Part shown: positions 14,024-59,751 of the stretch, piece by piece
Position numbering within the stretch: the first letter of the stretch is position 1
How the letters are laid out: every line of letters begins with the position of its first letter
NCBI RefSeq assembly: GCF_902859705.1
Contig: NZ_CADIJO010000024.1
Location: 1-64,000 of the forward strand
DNA: 64,000 nt
Source: Achromobacter deleyi
GTDB lineage: Bacteria; Pseudomonadota; Gammaproteobacteria; Burkholderiales; Burkholderiaceae_B
Direction: 5' to 3'
Notes under the pieces: generated by a model
What the model saw: only the letters and a program-made list of their open reading frames with translations
What the model was told of the DNA's origin: nothing
Databases searched by the model: none
Made by a program: the position numbers and the translations under genes

Positions 14024-14077
14024 GTGGCTTTTTGCTCTTTTGTTTTTTCATTCAACGACACACCAAAGGAAATCATC

Positions 14078-14434
14078 ATGAAGCAACTCACCACCGCCGC
14101 GTTTGCCGTCTGCCTCGCCTTCGGCGCCGTCGCGGCCCATGCGGCCGACAGCATGAGCAAGGATTCGATGTCCAAGGACGGGATGTCGAACAGCAGCATG
14201 TCCAAGGACGGCATGGCGAAAGACGGCATGGCCAAGGACGGCATGTCCAAGGGCAGCATGAGCAAGGACGGCATGTCGCACGACGGCATGAAGAAGGATT
14301 CCATGGGCAAGGACGGCATGTCGAAGGATTCCATGTCCAAGGATTCCATGTCCAAAGACTCGATGTCCAAGGACGGCATGTCCAAAGGCGGCATGAGCAA
14401 GGATTCCATGGGCAAGGATTCCATGAGCAAGTGA
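14078..14434 (+). CDS. Methionine-rich MXKDX pentapeptide repeat protein, exported
   Basis: The 118-residue protein has a signal peptide of about 22 residues (cleavage after AHA), followed by 19 near-perfect five-residue repeats of the form [S/G]-M-x-K-D, so one residue in five of the mature chain is methionine. This is the MXKDX repeat family. In Azospira suillum a comparable methionine-rich periplasmic peptide (MrpX) is a sacrificial scavenger of hypochlorite, recycled by a YedY-type reductase. The position here between such a reductase and MsrB/MsrA suggests the same role. The 15-base repeats vary mostly at synonymous positions, so the reading frame is under selection. Confidence 0.87.
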   Translation: MKQLTTAAFAVCLAFGAVAAHAADSMSKDSMSKDGMSNSSMSKDGMAKDGMAKDGMSKGSMSKDGMSHDGMKKDSMGKDGMSKDSMSKDSMSKDSMSKDGMSKGGMSKDSMGKDSMSK

Positions 14435-15043: not shown

Positions 15044-15739
15044 ATGCCTATCCGCCCCCTGCCCCGCGCCCTCTCTGCGGCCCTGCTCGCCACCGCCGGC
15101 CTGTTCGCCGCCAACGCGGCCGGCGCCGCCGAACGCGCCTTCATCATCCCGCCGCCCGCCGTCGACGAGCCGGCCACCGCCGCCCAGGAAAAAGCCGTCA
15201 TCGCGGGCGGGTGCTTCTGGGGCGTGCAGGCCGTGTTCCAGCACGTAAAAGGCGTGACGTCCGCGGTGTCCGGCTATGCCGGCGGCCAGGCTTCCACTGC
15301 CGACTACGACACGGTCAGCGGCGGGCGCAGCGGTCATGCCGAATCCGTCGAAATCACCTATGACCCCAAGCAGGTCAGCTACGGCCAGCTGCTGCAGATC
15401 TATTTCTCGGTGGCGCACGACCCCACCCAGCTGAACCGCCAGGGCCCGGACAGCGGCACGCAGTATCGGTCCACCGTCTTCCCCACCAACGACAGCCAGC
15501 GCAAGGTGGCCGAAGCCTACATCGCGCAGCTGGACAAGGCGGGCGTGTATCCCAAGGCGCTGGCGACCACGGTGGAACCGCTGAAGGGCTTCTATCCGGC
15601 CGAGGGCTATCACCAGGATTACCTGGTACGCCACCCCTACAGCATGTACATCATGGTCAATGACGTACCCAAGGTGGAAAACCTGGCCAAGACCTTTCCG
15701 GCGGCGTATCGGGACAAGCCGGTGCTGGTGAATCCGTAG
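15044..15739 (+). CDS. msrA: Peptide-methionine (S)-S-oxide reductase, exported
   Basis: The 231-residue MsrA reduces the S-epimer of methionine sulfoxide. The catalytic Cys57 is in the invariant GGCFWG motif. Residues 1-28 form a Sec-type signal peptide ending AGA-A, which places the enzyme in the periplasm with MsrB. Last gene of the repair operon, 37 bases after msrB. Stem-loops without a clear T-run follow. Confidence 0.93.
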   Translation: MPIRPLPRALSAALLATAGLFAANAAGAAERAFIIPPPAVDEPATAAQEKAVIAGGCFWGVQAVFQHVKGVTSAVSGYAGGQASTADYDTVSGGRSGHAESVEITYDPKQVSYGQLLQIYFSVAHDPTQLNRQGPDSGTQYRSTVFPTNDSQRKVAEAYIAQLDKAGVYPKALATTVEPLKGFYPAEGYHQDYLVRHPYSMYIMVNDVPKVENLAKTFPAAYRDKPVLVNP

Positions 15740-15808
15740 GACTTGAACGCCGAACCGCCTGGCCCGCCGGCAAGCCGGCTCGCCTGGCGTTCATACCTGA
15801 ATCGCCTG

Positions 15809-15829
15809 GTGGCTGCCCTTGGCAGCCAC
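15809..15829. terminator. Hairpin downstream of msrA
   Basis: GTGGCTGCC (15809-15817) and GGCAGCCAC (15821-15829) form a perfect 9-bp stem with a three-base loop; CGCC and GGCG further out can extend it. A second long-range pairing, TGAACGCC (15744-15751) with GGCGTTCA (15786-15793), lies just before it. There is no T-run, so it may stabilise the message end or assist factor-dependent termination. Confidence 0.4.
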
Positions 15830-16277
15830 TGGCGCTTGTGGACGCCGCTTATTATTTTCAATAATGCAGCACTTTATTATTAACGATTTAAAAATCGCTT
15901 AATAAGCAATTCCTGAAATACCCCATAGCCAGAGAATCAATAATAAATATCACAGCACCTTGACTGCACCTCCAAGACCCTCATCCCGCCCCGTTTTTAT
16001 ACGATGAAATGTATCAATTCACGCCATTTTGATAATGCGGACGGTATCTAAAACCTTGTTTAAAATCAACCGGTTGGTATCCATAACCCGACCCTTAATA
16101 ATACGGATGGTATCCACACACCCCCTACTTTGTATTGCAAAAAAATTAGTATAAATTCCGTCCTTTTTTCGATTCCTCGCAGCGCCAGAGCATTTTGTTT
16201 CGTTATGCAGCACCTTCGTTACATCGACGAAAAATGCCCGGGCGAGATTATCAATCGAAATACAAAGGACTCCAGTT
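15830..16277. other. AT-rich intergenic region upstream of the autotransporter
   Basis: The gap between msrA and the autotransporter is about 540 bases, and its last 450 are strikingly AT-rich for this genome (for example TTATTATTTTCAATAATG near 15850 and repeated ATAATA runs). Such DNA is typical of silenced or horizontally acquired surface genes. A TATAAAT at 16150-16156 could be a -10 element for the autotransporter. The segment 16019-16117 holds the repeat described separately. I see no RNA gene. Confidence 0.6.
16019..16117 (-). repeat. Three 33-bp tandem repeats encoding an 11-residue motif on the minus strand
   Basis: The hexamer GGTATC recurs at 16043, 16076 and 16109, exactly 33 bases apart. 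Read on the minus strand to the TGA at 16019-16021, the three units give VDTIRIIKGRV, MDTNRLILNKV and LDTVRIIKMA. Over the seven codons from DT to K, the outer two units differ at four bases. Three are synonymous third-position changes and one gives Ile/Val. This suggests past selection on a minus-strand peptide. No credible start is visible, as the open frame runs back into the autotransporter signal peptide, so it may be a gene remnant. Alternatively, the repeats may be protein-binding sites upstream of the autotransporter. Confidence 0.5.
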
Positions 16278-19112
16278 TTGACCTCTGGCAAAAACAAATG
16301 GCTAACCGCGACGCTCGCGCTCAGCACAACCTACTGCGGCGGCGCCCTGGCCGCCGACCTGACGGTGGCGCCCGGCAATACCCAGGTATTCGACGGCTCG
16401 GCCAACTTCCCTGGCGGCGTTGACGTCAATGGCGGCACGCTGGTCGTCGGCGGCAATGGCGGCGGCGCCGGCGTGACGCTCAACGGCAACGTCAATGCCG
16501 TGTCGAACGCCACCGTGTCCGGCTTTGGCACGGTCAACGGCAATCTGAATGTGTCGGGCAATTCGCGCGTGGCCCCCGGTTATCCCGTCGGCACGCCCAC
16601 CGGCGTGTCCAACGGCAACCTGGTCGTCAAGGGCGACCTGTCGATGAACAATGCCGTATTCGACTTCGAAACCGGTTATGCCGGCCTGCCCATCACCCAG
16701 CCCGGCACCGGCGACAACATCACCGTTGGCGGCAATGTCGCGCTGAACAACACGACGCTGAACGTCTCGGTCAATACCCTGGGGGTCAACGCCGGCTATT
16801 ACCGCATCCTGTCGTACGGCGGCACCTTGAGCGGCAACGGCCTGACGCTGGGCACCGTCACCGGCGATTCCGTGCCGGCCGCCAACATCCAGTCGCTGAC
16901 CGGCGACAAGCAGATCAACCTGATCCTCGGCCCCAGCACCACCAACCTGTGGAACGGCAACGGCGTGGCATCCGCCACCCGCGCCGGCGGCGGCAACGGC
17001 ACCTGGAGCGCCACCGGCGGCAACTGGAACAGCCCCACCAATGCCACCGGCGCCCTGCCCGATGGCGGCTATGCCATCTTCACCGGCGCGGCCGGCACGG
17101 TCACGGTCGACGGCGGCGCAGGCCCCGTGCGCGTGTCGGGCATCCAGTTCGCCACCGACCGCTACACCGTGCAAGGCGCGCCCATCAACCTGGTCGGCAA
17201 CGGCGGCAACCCGCCCGCCCTCGTCGTGGGCGACGGCACCTATGCATCGGGCCAGTTCGTCGACACCATCCACAACCCGCTGCAGGGCACGCAGGGCTTC
17301 GTCAAGACTGGCCCCGGCTCGCTCATCCTGACCGCCGACAGCAGCGGCCTGTCCGGTCCCATCCTGATCGCCGACGGCGCCCTGGAAATCGATGGCAAGC
17401 TGAACGGCCCCATGGACATCGGCCGCGAAGTCGTGCTGGCCGGCGTCGGCCAGGTCGGCACCACCACGCTGTATCCCACCGCCGTCATCTCGCCGGGCAA
17501 CGATGGCTCGCCCATCGGCACGCTCACCGTCAACGGCAACCTGACCTTCGGCCAGGACACCATCTACCGCGTGCACGCCGACCCCGCCAGCAGCGCCAGC
17601 GACCGTATCCACGTCACCGGCATCGCCTACCTGGACGGCACCGTGGCCCACGTGGGCCCCGACGGCAACTACGCGCCGCGCACCACCTACAACATCCTGA
17701 CCGCGGACGGCGGCATCCAGGGCCGCTTCACCGGCGCCTCCAGCAATTACGCCTTCCTGACCCCCACGCTGAGCTACGACGCGAAGAACGCCTTCATGAC
17801 GCTCACGCGCAATGACGTGCCGATCGGCGACATCGGTAATTCCGGCAACGAAAACGCCGTGGGCGATGCGCTGGACAAGGAAGACCCGCCCGCCAAGGGC
17901 AACGGAAACGGCAACGGCTCGTCGGGCACGGGCGCGGGCACCGGCACCGGCACGGCGGCGAACGGCAACGACGCCGCCTCGGCCGGCAACGGCTCGCCCG
18001 TCATCGGCAGCGGCATCACCTCGCCCAGGAACACCGGCGCCAGCCAGGTCACGACCGCCGTGCTGACCATGACGCCCACCGAAGCGCGATCGGCCCTGAA
18101 GCAGCTGGCGGGCGAAGCCTACGCCAGCACCGCCAGCGTGCTGCAAGGCCAGAGCGACACCGTGCGCACCTTGCCGCTGGATCACCTGCGCGGCAACCTG
18201 GACGCCCCGGCGTTGGCCGGCCAGCCCACCGCCCAATTGGGTTCGCCTTCGTCCGACGCCCTGCCGCAAAGCGGCGCGCACCCGGTCTGGGCGCAAGTCT
18301 TCGGCAACTGGGGCAGCCTGGGCGGCGACGGCAACGCCTCGCGCGTCAGCCAATCGGCCGGCGGCCTGTTCGTGGGCACCGATGCCGCCGTGGGCGGCGG
18401 TTGGCGCCTGGGCGGTGCGGTCGGCTATACCGGCAGCCACAGCTCCGTGTCCGACATCTCGGCGCGCACCGACGTCGACAGCTACACGGCCACGGTATTC
18501 GGCGGCCGCAACTTCCCCGCCGGTCCCGGCCACATCCGCTTCATGGCCGGCGCCGCCTACACCTGGCACGACATCGACACCAAGCGCAACGTCGTGGCCG
18601 GCAGCCTGAACCAGCAGCTCAAATCCTCGTACAACGCCTCGTCCACGCAGGTGTTCACCGAACTGGGCTACCACCTGCCGCTGGGCGATGCCTACAGCAT
18701 CGAACCCTACGCCGGCCTGGCCTGGAACCAGTTGCGCACCCGCGACTTCCAGGAATCGGGCGGATCGGCCGCCCTGCGCGGATCGGGCACCACCGACGAC
18801 GTCACCAGCACCACGCTGGGCCTGCGCGGCGCATGGCAGTTTGAATCGAACCGCGCCCCCGGCCGCATCACCGCGTCGCTGGGCTGGCGCCATGCCATGG
18901 GCGACGTCAAGCCTCGCCAGGACCTCGCCTTCGACGGCGGCAGCACGTTCTCGGTCAGCGGCGCACCGATAGCGCAGAACGCGGCCGTGCTGGGCCTGGG
19001 CGCCGAAATCGCCATCGCCCGCAACACCACCGCGGGCGTTGCGTACGACGCGCAGTTTGGCGGCGGCAACCGGCAGCAGTCGGGCATGTTCAAGCTGGCG
19101 GTGCGTTTCTAA
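16278..19112 (+). CDS. Classical (type Va) autotransporter
   Basis: The 944-residue protein begins with a signal peptide (about 1-27, ending GALAA). Next comes a beta-helical passenger, including an autotransporter-associated beta-strand repeat (GFVKTGPGSLILTADSSG, about residues 337-354). A low-complexity Gly/Asn/Thr linker follows at about 545-575. A linker-helix segment (ARSALKQLAGEAYAS) leads into a C-terminal 12-strand beta-barrel (about 675-944) ending in the outer-membrane phenylalanine (KLAVRF). The start is TTG, supported by AAAGGA 8 bases upstream and correct signal-peptide phasing. No protease triad or RGD motif is evident in the passenger, so adhesion or biofilm roles are guesses. 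Confidence 0.88.
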   Translation: MTSGKNKWLTATLALSTTYCGGALAADLTVAPGNTQVFDGSANFPGGVDVNGGTLVVGGNGGGAGVTLNGNVNAVSNATVSGFGTVNGNLNVSGNSRVAPGYPVGTPTGVSNGNLVVKGDLSMNNAVFDFETGYAGLPITQPGTGDNITVGGNVALNNTTLNVSVNTLGVNAGYYRILSYGGTLSGNGLTLGTVTGDSVPAANIQSLTGDKQINLILGPSTTNLWNGNGVASATRAGGGNGTWSATGGNWNSPTNATGALPDGGYAIFTGAAGTVTVDGGAGPVRVSGIQFATDRYTVQGAPINLVGNGGNPPALVVGDGTYASGQFVDTIHNPLQGTQGFVKTGPGSLILTADSSGLSGPILIADGALEIDGKLNGPMDIGREVVLAGVGQVGTTTLYPTAVISPGNDGSPIGTLTVNGNLTFGQDTIYRVHADPASSASDRIHVTGIAYLDGTVAHVGPDGNYAPRTTYNILTADGGIQGRFTGASSNYAFLTPTLSYDAKNAFMTLTRNDVPIGDIGNSGNENAVGDALDKEDPPAKGNGNGNGSSGTGAGTGTGTAANGNDAASAGNGSPVIGSGITSPRNTGASQVTTAVLTMTPTEARSALKQLAGEAYASTASVLQGQSDTVRTLPLDHLRGNLDAPALAGQPTAQLGSPSSDALPQSGAHPVWAQVFGNWGSLGGDGNASRVSQSAGGLFVGTDAAVGGGWRLGGAVGYTGSHSSVSDISARTDVDSYTATVFGGRNFPAGPGHIRFMAGAAYTWHDIDTKRNVVAGSLNQQLKSSYNASSTQVFTELGYHLPLGDAYSIEPYAGLAWNQLRTRDFQESGGSAALRGSGTTDDVTSTTLGLRGAWQFESNRAPGRITASLGWRHAMGDVKPRQDLAFDGGSTFSVSGAPIAQNAAVLGLGAEIAIARNTTAGVAYDAQFGGGNRQQSGMFKLAVRF

Positions 19113-58500: not shown

Positions 58501-59751
58501 ATGAACGCCCACGCCAGGATTCTTCCGCTACGCCCGCTGGCCGCCGCCGTCCTGCTGGCGGTCAGTGCCGGCGCTATGGCCCAGACCTATGCGCCGCCGC
58601 CCCCACCGGCGGCGCCCGCCTACGACAACGGCGATCCCGCCAACGCCAACCTGGCGCCCGTGGACCGCAGCCCGCAGCCCCCGCCGCCCCTGCCCGTCTA
58701 TGAACAGCCGCCCGCCCCCGGCGACGGCTACATGTGGGTGCCGGGCTACTGGAGCCTGAACCGCCTGGGCTACTTCTGGGTGCCCGGCGCGTGGGTGCTG
58801 GCGCCCTACACCGGCGCATTGTGGACGCCTGGTTACTGGGGTTTTGTCGACGGCATCTATCTCTGGCATGGCGGCTACTGGGGCCCGCACATCGGCTTCT
58901 ATGGCGGCGTGAACTACGGTTTCGGTTATATCGGCATCGGCTTCGTCGGCGGCTACTGGGACCACGACCGCTTCTTCTACAACCGCGCCGTGACCAACGT
59001 GAACGTCACGCGCGTCACCAACGTCTACAACCACACGGTGGTGGTCAACAACATCGACAACCGCCGCATCAGCTACAACGGCGGGCCGGCCGGCATCCAG
59101 CGCCAGGCCGATCCGCGCGAAGTCGCGGCGCGCAACGAACAGCATCGTCCGCCCACCGACATGCAGCGCGGCTTCGCCCGCCAGGCCGCAGGCAACCGGG
59201 CGCAATTCTTCGACCATAACCAGGGCCGTCCGGCCCAGGCGTTCGTCGAACATGCGCCGGAACGCGGCGGGCCGGGGCAAGGACCGCGGCCGGGTGGTGC
59301 GCCAGGCAATGGGCCGGGCGCGGGTCCGGCCAACGGACCGAACGCCGGCGGGCCTGGCGGTCGCCCAGAGATGAATCGCGGCGGCCCTGGCGATCGCCCC
59401 GAGATGAACCGCGGCGGCCCTGGCGGCATGTCGCCGGGCCAGGCGCGCCCTGGGCCGCAGGGGCAGCCACCGCAGCAACCGGCCGCGCAACGCCCACCGC
59501 AAGCGCAACCCCAGGCCCAGCCGCCGCAAGCGCGACCGCCGCAGGCACAGCGCCCCACGCCCGCGCCCGACAACCTGGCGCAGGCGGCCGCGCGTGAACG
59601 CCATGCCGCGCCCCAGAATCGGCCGCAAAGCCCACCGCAGGCGCGGCCCGAAGGCAATCCGCAGCATGGCGGCGGCAACCGGCCGCAAGGCGGCCATGAA
59701 CCGCAGCACGGCGGCGAACGGCCGGCCCCTCACGAACGCGGCCGCGACTGA
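58501..59751 (+). CDS. YXWGXW-repeat exported protein
   Basis: The 416-residue protein has a signal peptide (cleavage after AMA, residue 27) and a proline-rich stretch. An aromatic repeat domain follows (MWVPGYWSLN, FWVPGAWVL, LWTPGYWGF, LWHGGYWGP; about 76-135). The last 150 residues are a long Pro/Gln/Gly/Arg-rich disordered tail. YXWGXW/WxxGxW repeat proteins are common in beta-proteobacterial envelopes; the function is not established. The tail is low-complexity and varies in length within such families. Confidence 0.82.
   Translation: MNAHARILPLRPLAAAVLLAVSAGAMAQTYAPPPPPAAPAYDNGDPANANLAPVDRSPQPPPPLPVYEQPPAPGDGYMWVPGYWSLNRLGYFWVPGAWVLAPYTGALWTPGYWGFVDGIYLWHGGYWGPHIGFYGGVNYGFGYIGIGFVGGYWDHDRFFYNRAVTNVNVTRVTNVYNHTVVVNNIDNRRISYNGGPAGIQRQADPREVAARNEQHRPPTDMQRGFARQAAGNRAQFFDHNQGRPAQAFVEHAPERGGPGQGPRPGGAPGNGPGAGPANGPNAGGPGGRPEMNRGGPGDRPEMNRGGPGGMSPGQARPGPQGQPPQQPAAQRPPQAQPQAQPPQARPPQAQRPTPAPDNLAQAAARERHAAPQNRPQSPPQARPEGNPQHGGGNRPQGGHEPQHGGERPAPHERGRD

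Follow-up and report, generated by a model that had tools for sequence, protein, structure and literature searches.

At the virulence promoters of Bordetella, dimers of the response regulator BvgA are stacked upstream of autotransporter and adhesin promoters, the BvgA heptad being TTTCCTA and the period of the array about 22 bp. For regulators of the Lrp/AsnC family, a separation of two or three helical turns between sites, together with wrapping of the DNA, is described (PMC2995911, PMC10201364). In the CytR/CRP operator cassettes, the spacers between half-sites tend to whole numbers of helical turns, three at most, and the paper states that a spacing of two or three turns had been demonstrated as possible but had yet to be observed in nature (PMC3454398).

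The DNA analyzed here, which we refer to as the window, is a stretch of 64,000 nucleotides from Achromobacter deleyi (assembly GCF_902859705.1, contig NZ_CADIJO010000024.1, positions 1 to 64,000). Achromobacter includes opportunistic pathogens. An array of short sites lies in a 538-bp A/T-rich gap between the genes for a peptide methionine sulfoxide reductase and an autotransporter, with the following features.

15044-15739, same strand as the autotransporter gene: peptide methionine sulfoxide reductase gene (PF01625)
16006..16016, plus strand: degenerate fourth unit with 7 of the 11 core bases, exactly 33 bp beyond the site at 106 bp
16039..16049, plus strand: array site GGACGGTATCT, 106 bp upstream of the -10-like element
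16072..16082, plus strand: array site GGTTGGTATCC, 73 bp upstream of the -10-like element
16105..16115, plus strand: array site GGATGGTATCC, the exact core, 40 bp upstream of the -10-like element
16150..16155, plus strand: -10-like TATAAA in the conserved block TGGTATAAATTGCGTCCTTTTTT, predicted from conservation
16160..16166, plus strand: GTCCTTT, close to the predicted transcript start and complementary to the Shine-Dalgarno-like AAAGGAC; a tentative assignment
16264..16270, plus strand: Shine-Dalgarno-like AAAGGAC
16278..19112, plus strand: autotransporter gene, 944 aa, TTG start, beta-barrel PF03797 at residues 670-924

A search for solved structures resembling residues 1-669 of the autotransporter returned none at E up to 0.01. 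Elsewhere in the window, another 33-bp tandem repeat was observed at 59346-59426 (2.5 copies, 89% matches), with a G+C-rich unit unlike that of the array, and a pentapeptide MXKDX repeat protein (TIGR02953) is encoded by a 15-bp tandem repeat array at 14024-14434.

The preliminary description of this DNA had reported GGTATC at a strict 33-bp period and minus-strand units beginning D-T-x-R, with three of the four base differences between the outer units at third codon positions. These observations hold: GGTATC occurs at 16043, 16076 and 16109 with a period of exactly 33 bp, the minus strand of the outer units encodes D-T-V-R-I-I-K in one and D-T-I-R-I-I-K in the other, and the third-position differences follow directly from the sequence. 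An additional weaker unit, TGTATC at 16010, lies one period upstream and was absent from that description; in several relatives, a GTATCAAT-like stretch is found about where this degenerate fourth unit sits. The three main units have 17-21 of 33 bases in common. When Tandem Repeats Finder was run on the window, the 33-bp array was absent from its output, probably because the spacers differ. A 6-mer at three equal spacings, whatever its sequence, appeared in 12 of 2000 dinucleotide shuffles of 15740-16277, so that within a single genome the 33-bp pattern is suggestive only. Comparison with relatives was the decisive test, and it confirmed that the repeat is real and beyond chance.

This comparison covers 48 loci, from 42 Achromobacter genomes and six genomes of a sister genus, g9. 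Thirty loci were found by DNA similarity to the window, eight by paired patterns (G003, G014, G023, G024, G032, G035, G037, G102) and ten by protein search (G001, G005, G015, G027, G042 and G103-G107), the first five of these ten also having paired sites. The set leaves out G215 and G216, where the array is absent, and G033, where the contig begins at the gene. Some counts below refer to 39 loci, which include L183, a duplicate of G025 (L037) that is outside the 48-locus counts; L180, a duplicate of G004, was left out of the counts.

Distances were taken from each core to the conserved -10-like block with the consensus TGGTATAAATTGCGTCCTTTTTT. Among the core matches with at most two mismatches and at most 200 bp upstream, 146 of 147 lie within 2 bp of slots at 39, 72, 105, 138 and 171 bp, and every one of the 48 loci has at least one core on this lattice. 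One core in G105 is off the lattice, at 125 bp. The five slots are occupied in 36, 35, 41, 15 and 19 of the 48 loci, respectively. Within the same 200 bp of the 48 loci, the reversed core and the complemented core gave no match, the reverse complement gave three against 147, and 298 shuffled cores gave a mean of 0.6 matches (maximum 10), with at most one on the lattice. An empty slot leaves the register of the remaining sites unshifted, as at the 66-bp gaps in L023, L033 and L038. Slot 72 is empty in five of the six g9 genomes; in g9 loci L227-L231, an A/T-rich stretch was observed between two remaining sites 64-66 bp apart, TCTACAT-like in four of them and TTTAATAC in one. Three turns of B-DNA take up approximately 33 bp, and the period being this close to three turns, the sites lie on nearly one face of the helix. 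The spacing is thus near whole helical turns, as in a phased operator array, and is locked to a promoter that is itself predicted from conservation.

In 128 array sites aligned from the 39 loci, each position of the 11-bp core GGATGGTATCC carries 0.87-2.19 bits and the flanks at most 0.55. Core identity at slots 39, 72 and 105 is 0.91-0.92, a figure inflated by the selection of sites with at most two mismatches, versus 0.34-0.52 for the flanking 11 bp on each side, which is free of this inflation; a specific core is thus repeated between freely varying spacers, as a phased array would have it. The core can be read as GGAT-GGT-ATCC, nearly a dyad (GGAT-N3-ATCC), and the array sites, which were looked for in a single orientation, share that orientation and usually follow an A/T-rich stretch. 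The central GGT is conserved as much as the GGAT and ATCC arms, suggesting that recognition may not be purely symmetric. Core positions 0 and 10 covary, with A..T in 10 of 147 sites when about 4 would be expected under independence; this is a weak test of a dyad because the loci are related, and it lends weak support to dyad recognition by the two arms.

The array is tied to one gene. Searching with the gap as DNA gave a match in 36 of the 43 Achromobacter genomes, mostly within 16008-16170, i.e., the array and the promoter, with few matches elsewhere in the gap or the genome, and the same autotransporter was found at 29 of 29 loci from other genomes, 82-93% identical over the part compared. 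The paired pattern TGGTATC-N24..28-TGGTATC occurs in 41 of these 43 genomes at 64 places (3 matches for the backwards control), and all 64 are at this autotransporter gene. It is absent in G025 because the middle site is degenerate, leaving two good sites 66 bp apart, and in G033 because the contig begins at the gene. A search of 268 family genomes found the passenger half of the autotransporter in 43/43 Achromobacter, 6/6 g9 and 2/2 of a third genus, g38, with one further weak match in G110; the g9 genomes G103-G107, found by protein alone, each carry one or more exact cores at lattice positions. In G215 and G216 (g38), the array is absent from the stretch examined beside the orthologue, showing that the gene can do without it.

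A stricter pair pattern, which misses the arrays of the window and of G103-G107, matched 27 of the 268 family genomes (25 Achromobacter, G102 and G216), the match in G216 being at another place than its orthologue. A pattern search of the named collection returned 49 stretches, 4 from Achromobacter and 45 spread across many phyla, the latter taken as background from the estimated expected number. A relaxed single-site pattern matched 51 places in 33 of the 43 genomes, 40 at this gene and 11 elsewhere, and among these 11 nearly the same matched string recurred in G001 and G005 only. The genome of the window contains two exact copies of the core and 60 with one mismatch, versus 12 for the backwards control. 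Of these one-mismatch copies, 38 differ at the seventh or eighth base, as array sites hardly ever do, and look like background; the other exact core, at C2:48436, has G+C-rich surroundings that were judged by eye to be coding. Isolated single sites elsewhere in this genome are possible.

Around the gene, no gene family apart from the autotransporter itself is shared by more than 9 of 30 genomes (11-20 kb each; ORFs of at least 90 aa). The array therefore accompanies the gene rather than a chromosomal place, and its regulator is most likely encoded elsewhere. Among related species, gene and array occur in many different neighborhoods, as if moving together. A related autotransporter copy lies just upstream in G034, G035 and G036, and G003, G014, G032 and G037 have a response-regulator-like gene upstream (tblastn and translations).

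With the site, its lattice, its link to the gene and its conservation demonstrated, we consider it very probable that this is a helically phased operator array for one trans-acting transcription factor controlling the autotransporter promoter. Spaced sites for an autotransporter regulator had been one of the options in the preliminary description, and the comparison strongly supports that option, with 146 of 147 cores on the lattice and 64 of 64 paired places at the gene. The regulator would occupy the 11-bp cores in a line along one face of the DNA, the lattice of three turns would align the bound proteins so that neighbors touch and cooperate, and the aligned proteins could then contact RNA polymerase at the promoter, where the -10 is fair and the -35 poor. 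Protein binding at the sites, as well as cooperative binding between them, is what the pattern of conservation leads us to infer, and the regulator is probably dimeric and cooperative.

The TATAAA at 16150..16155 has no good -35 and was not among the matches of a promoter scan; a sigma-70-like match of the scan at 16074-16102, inside the array, was set aside, 0.9 such matches being expected by chance. The nearest site is centered about 40 bp upstream of the -10, which would correspond to about -52 for a transcription start some 12 bp beyond the first base of the -10. This position, together with the weak -35, favors an activator, which we regard as the likely mode of action; repression, or a combination of both, would be a secondary possibility. 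Six Achromobacter loci (L181, L182, L185, L186, L188 and L237) have the two distal slots only, at up to two mismatches, and fit poorly to a simple contact-activation model.

A bolder form of the operator reading can be put forward only tentatively, and we would sooner bet against it: a dedicated regulator with a single target might build a nucleoprotein fiber of three turns per unit over one promoter, with slots lost and regained on a fixed lattice, following a relocating gene, and the binding protein might come from a family in which such behavior is not yet known.

Among the alternatives to a polymerase-contacting regulator, the one that survives best is that a nucleoid-associated or anti-silencing protein would occupy the sites and remodel or wrap A/T-rich DNA silenced by an H-NS-like protein, without contacting RNA polymerase. 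The G+C content of 26-47% in 100-bp windows over 15850-16299, with most surrounding windows at 54-71%, is consistent with it, as are the A/T-leaning columns 5′ of each core in the 128-site alignment, the extension of the lattice to 171 bp upstream and the six loci with distal slots only. However, an 11-bp core in which several positions carry about 2 bits is sharper than expected of general nucleoid proteins, and one paired-site target per genome is too specific for them, and we regard this alternative as improbable.

The array could also act at the RNA level, its motifs being repeated along a transcript that starts at a more distant upstream promoter. A short conserved motif in a single orientation would suit this alternative, as would the partial conservation of the downstream leader. 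However, the distances from site to -10 vary by at most 2 bp around the slots, suggesting a link to the promoter, although the leader, too, hardly varies in length (126-134 bp in 47 of the 48 loci), and no Rfam family matched at E up to 1 over 15500-16600, so that a known RNA family was rejected as well. We hold action in RNA to be very improbable.

The leader itself may have a function of its own. The predicted 5′ end and the Shine-Dalgarno site of the same locus would form a duplex with a mean energy of -13.2 kcal/mol over the 48 loci, versus -11.3 kcal/mol for ends and sites taken from different loci and -7.2 kcal/mol with shuffled sites, 3.8% of shuffles reaching the mean. The 5′ end is CCTCC in 12 loci, all 12 of which have a GGAGG Shine-Dalgarno, and CGTCC in 28, which have AGGAY in 21, GGAGG in 3 and another sequence in 4; 8 loci have another 5′ end. 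In these duplex counts, the end of L229 was set 15 bases too far downstream, which was corrected for the leader alignment only. As placed, 47 of the 48 loci start the gene with TTG, and so does L229 once corrected by eye. RNAalifold predicted no consensus pairs on the 48 leaders. A translation-blocking leader at the autotransporter gene is a possibility that the complementarity raises.

The weakest alternatives are the two peptide readings of the preliminary description, namely that a minus-strand repeat-peptide gene has decayed here or that a short peptide is still made. In their favor, the window has a 102-aa open minus frame, three differences between the outer units are at third positions, 28 of 39 loci have some minus frame open across the array, which is easy for such short stretches, and over the seven D-T-x-R-x-x-K codons position 3 shows slightly more variation than the other two (0.324 vs. 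0.266 and 0.290), the four codons outside the core varying freely. However, the reading frame is mostly not kept across relatives: one minus frame is open throughout the array in 6 of 39 loci, and the spacing from site to site varies between 32 and 35 bp (66 across an empty slot), so that of 88 consecutive site pairs only 58 preserve the frame, and 33 do so with no stop codon. For the three codons inside the core, the variability on the minus strand is 0.007 at position 3 and 0.023 and 0.063 at positions 1 and 2, which is the reverse of a coding pattern, and the 102-aa frame had no match in Pfam or NCBIfam. Neither the decayed gene nor the surviving peptide is borne out by the frame test, nor by the third position being the least variable inside the core, and we give a peptide gene in either form practically no credence. 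A coding-like pattern in a single genome can disappear once relatives are compared.

Titles and abstract openings, in literature that covers only a minority of subscription journals, included nothing pointing to this promoter among papers on Achromobacter autotransporter or adhesin promoters, none on a Bordetella autotransporter with tandem binding sites, and none on the subject for the core string GGATGGTATCC. For the study of how this surface protein is controlled, an 11-bp core on a 33-bp lattice offers a precise, testable handle, and the passenger half of the protein occurs in each of the 43 Achromobacter genomes examined. So sharp an operator, with a single paired-site target in each genome, is unusual and should make it possible to isolate the regulator directly.

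Compared with the described systems, the putative operator array shares some properties with each and differs from each in others. First, BvgA-type arrays have the same position upstream of an autotransporter promoter, whereas their period is about 22 bp rather than 33 bp; the heptad TTTCCTA, with at most one mismatch, has no match in 15740-16277 (61 one-mismatch matches in the window), and a BvgA-regulated promoter was rejected. Second, the CytR/CRP cassettes likewise tend to space their half-sites by a whole number of helical turns, whereas their motif is another one and they use mixed factors. Third, Lrp/AsnC operators similarly have several semi-palindromic sites on one helix face, and since spacing of this kind and wrapping are described for them, they are a fitting model for the array. 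The GGAT-N3-ATCC sites at 33 bp do resemble semi-palindromes two or three turns apart, a resemblance that is not diagnostic of the family and depends on a weakly supported dyad, and the neighborhood comparison of 30 genomes found no Lrp gene tied to the array locus; an Lrp/AsnC-type protein is only a candidate for the regulator. In contrast to the sharp core of the array, natural Lrp/AsnC sites are described in a review as quite degenerated. Phased operator arrays are a known kind of element, of which the array at this autotransporter gene would be a new example.
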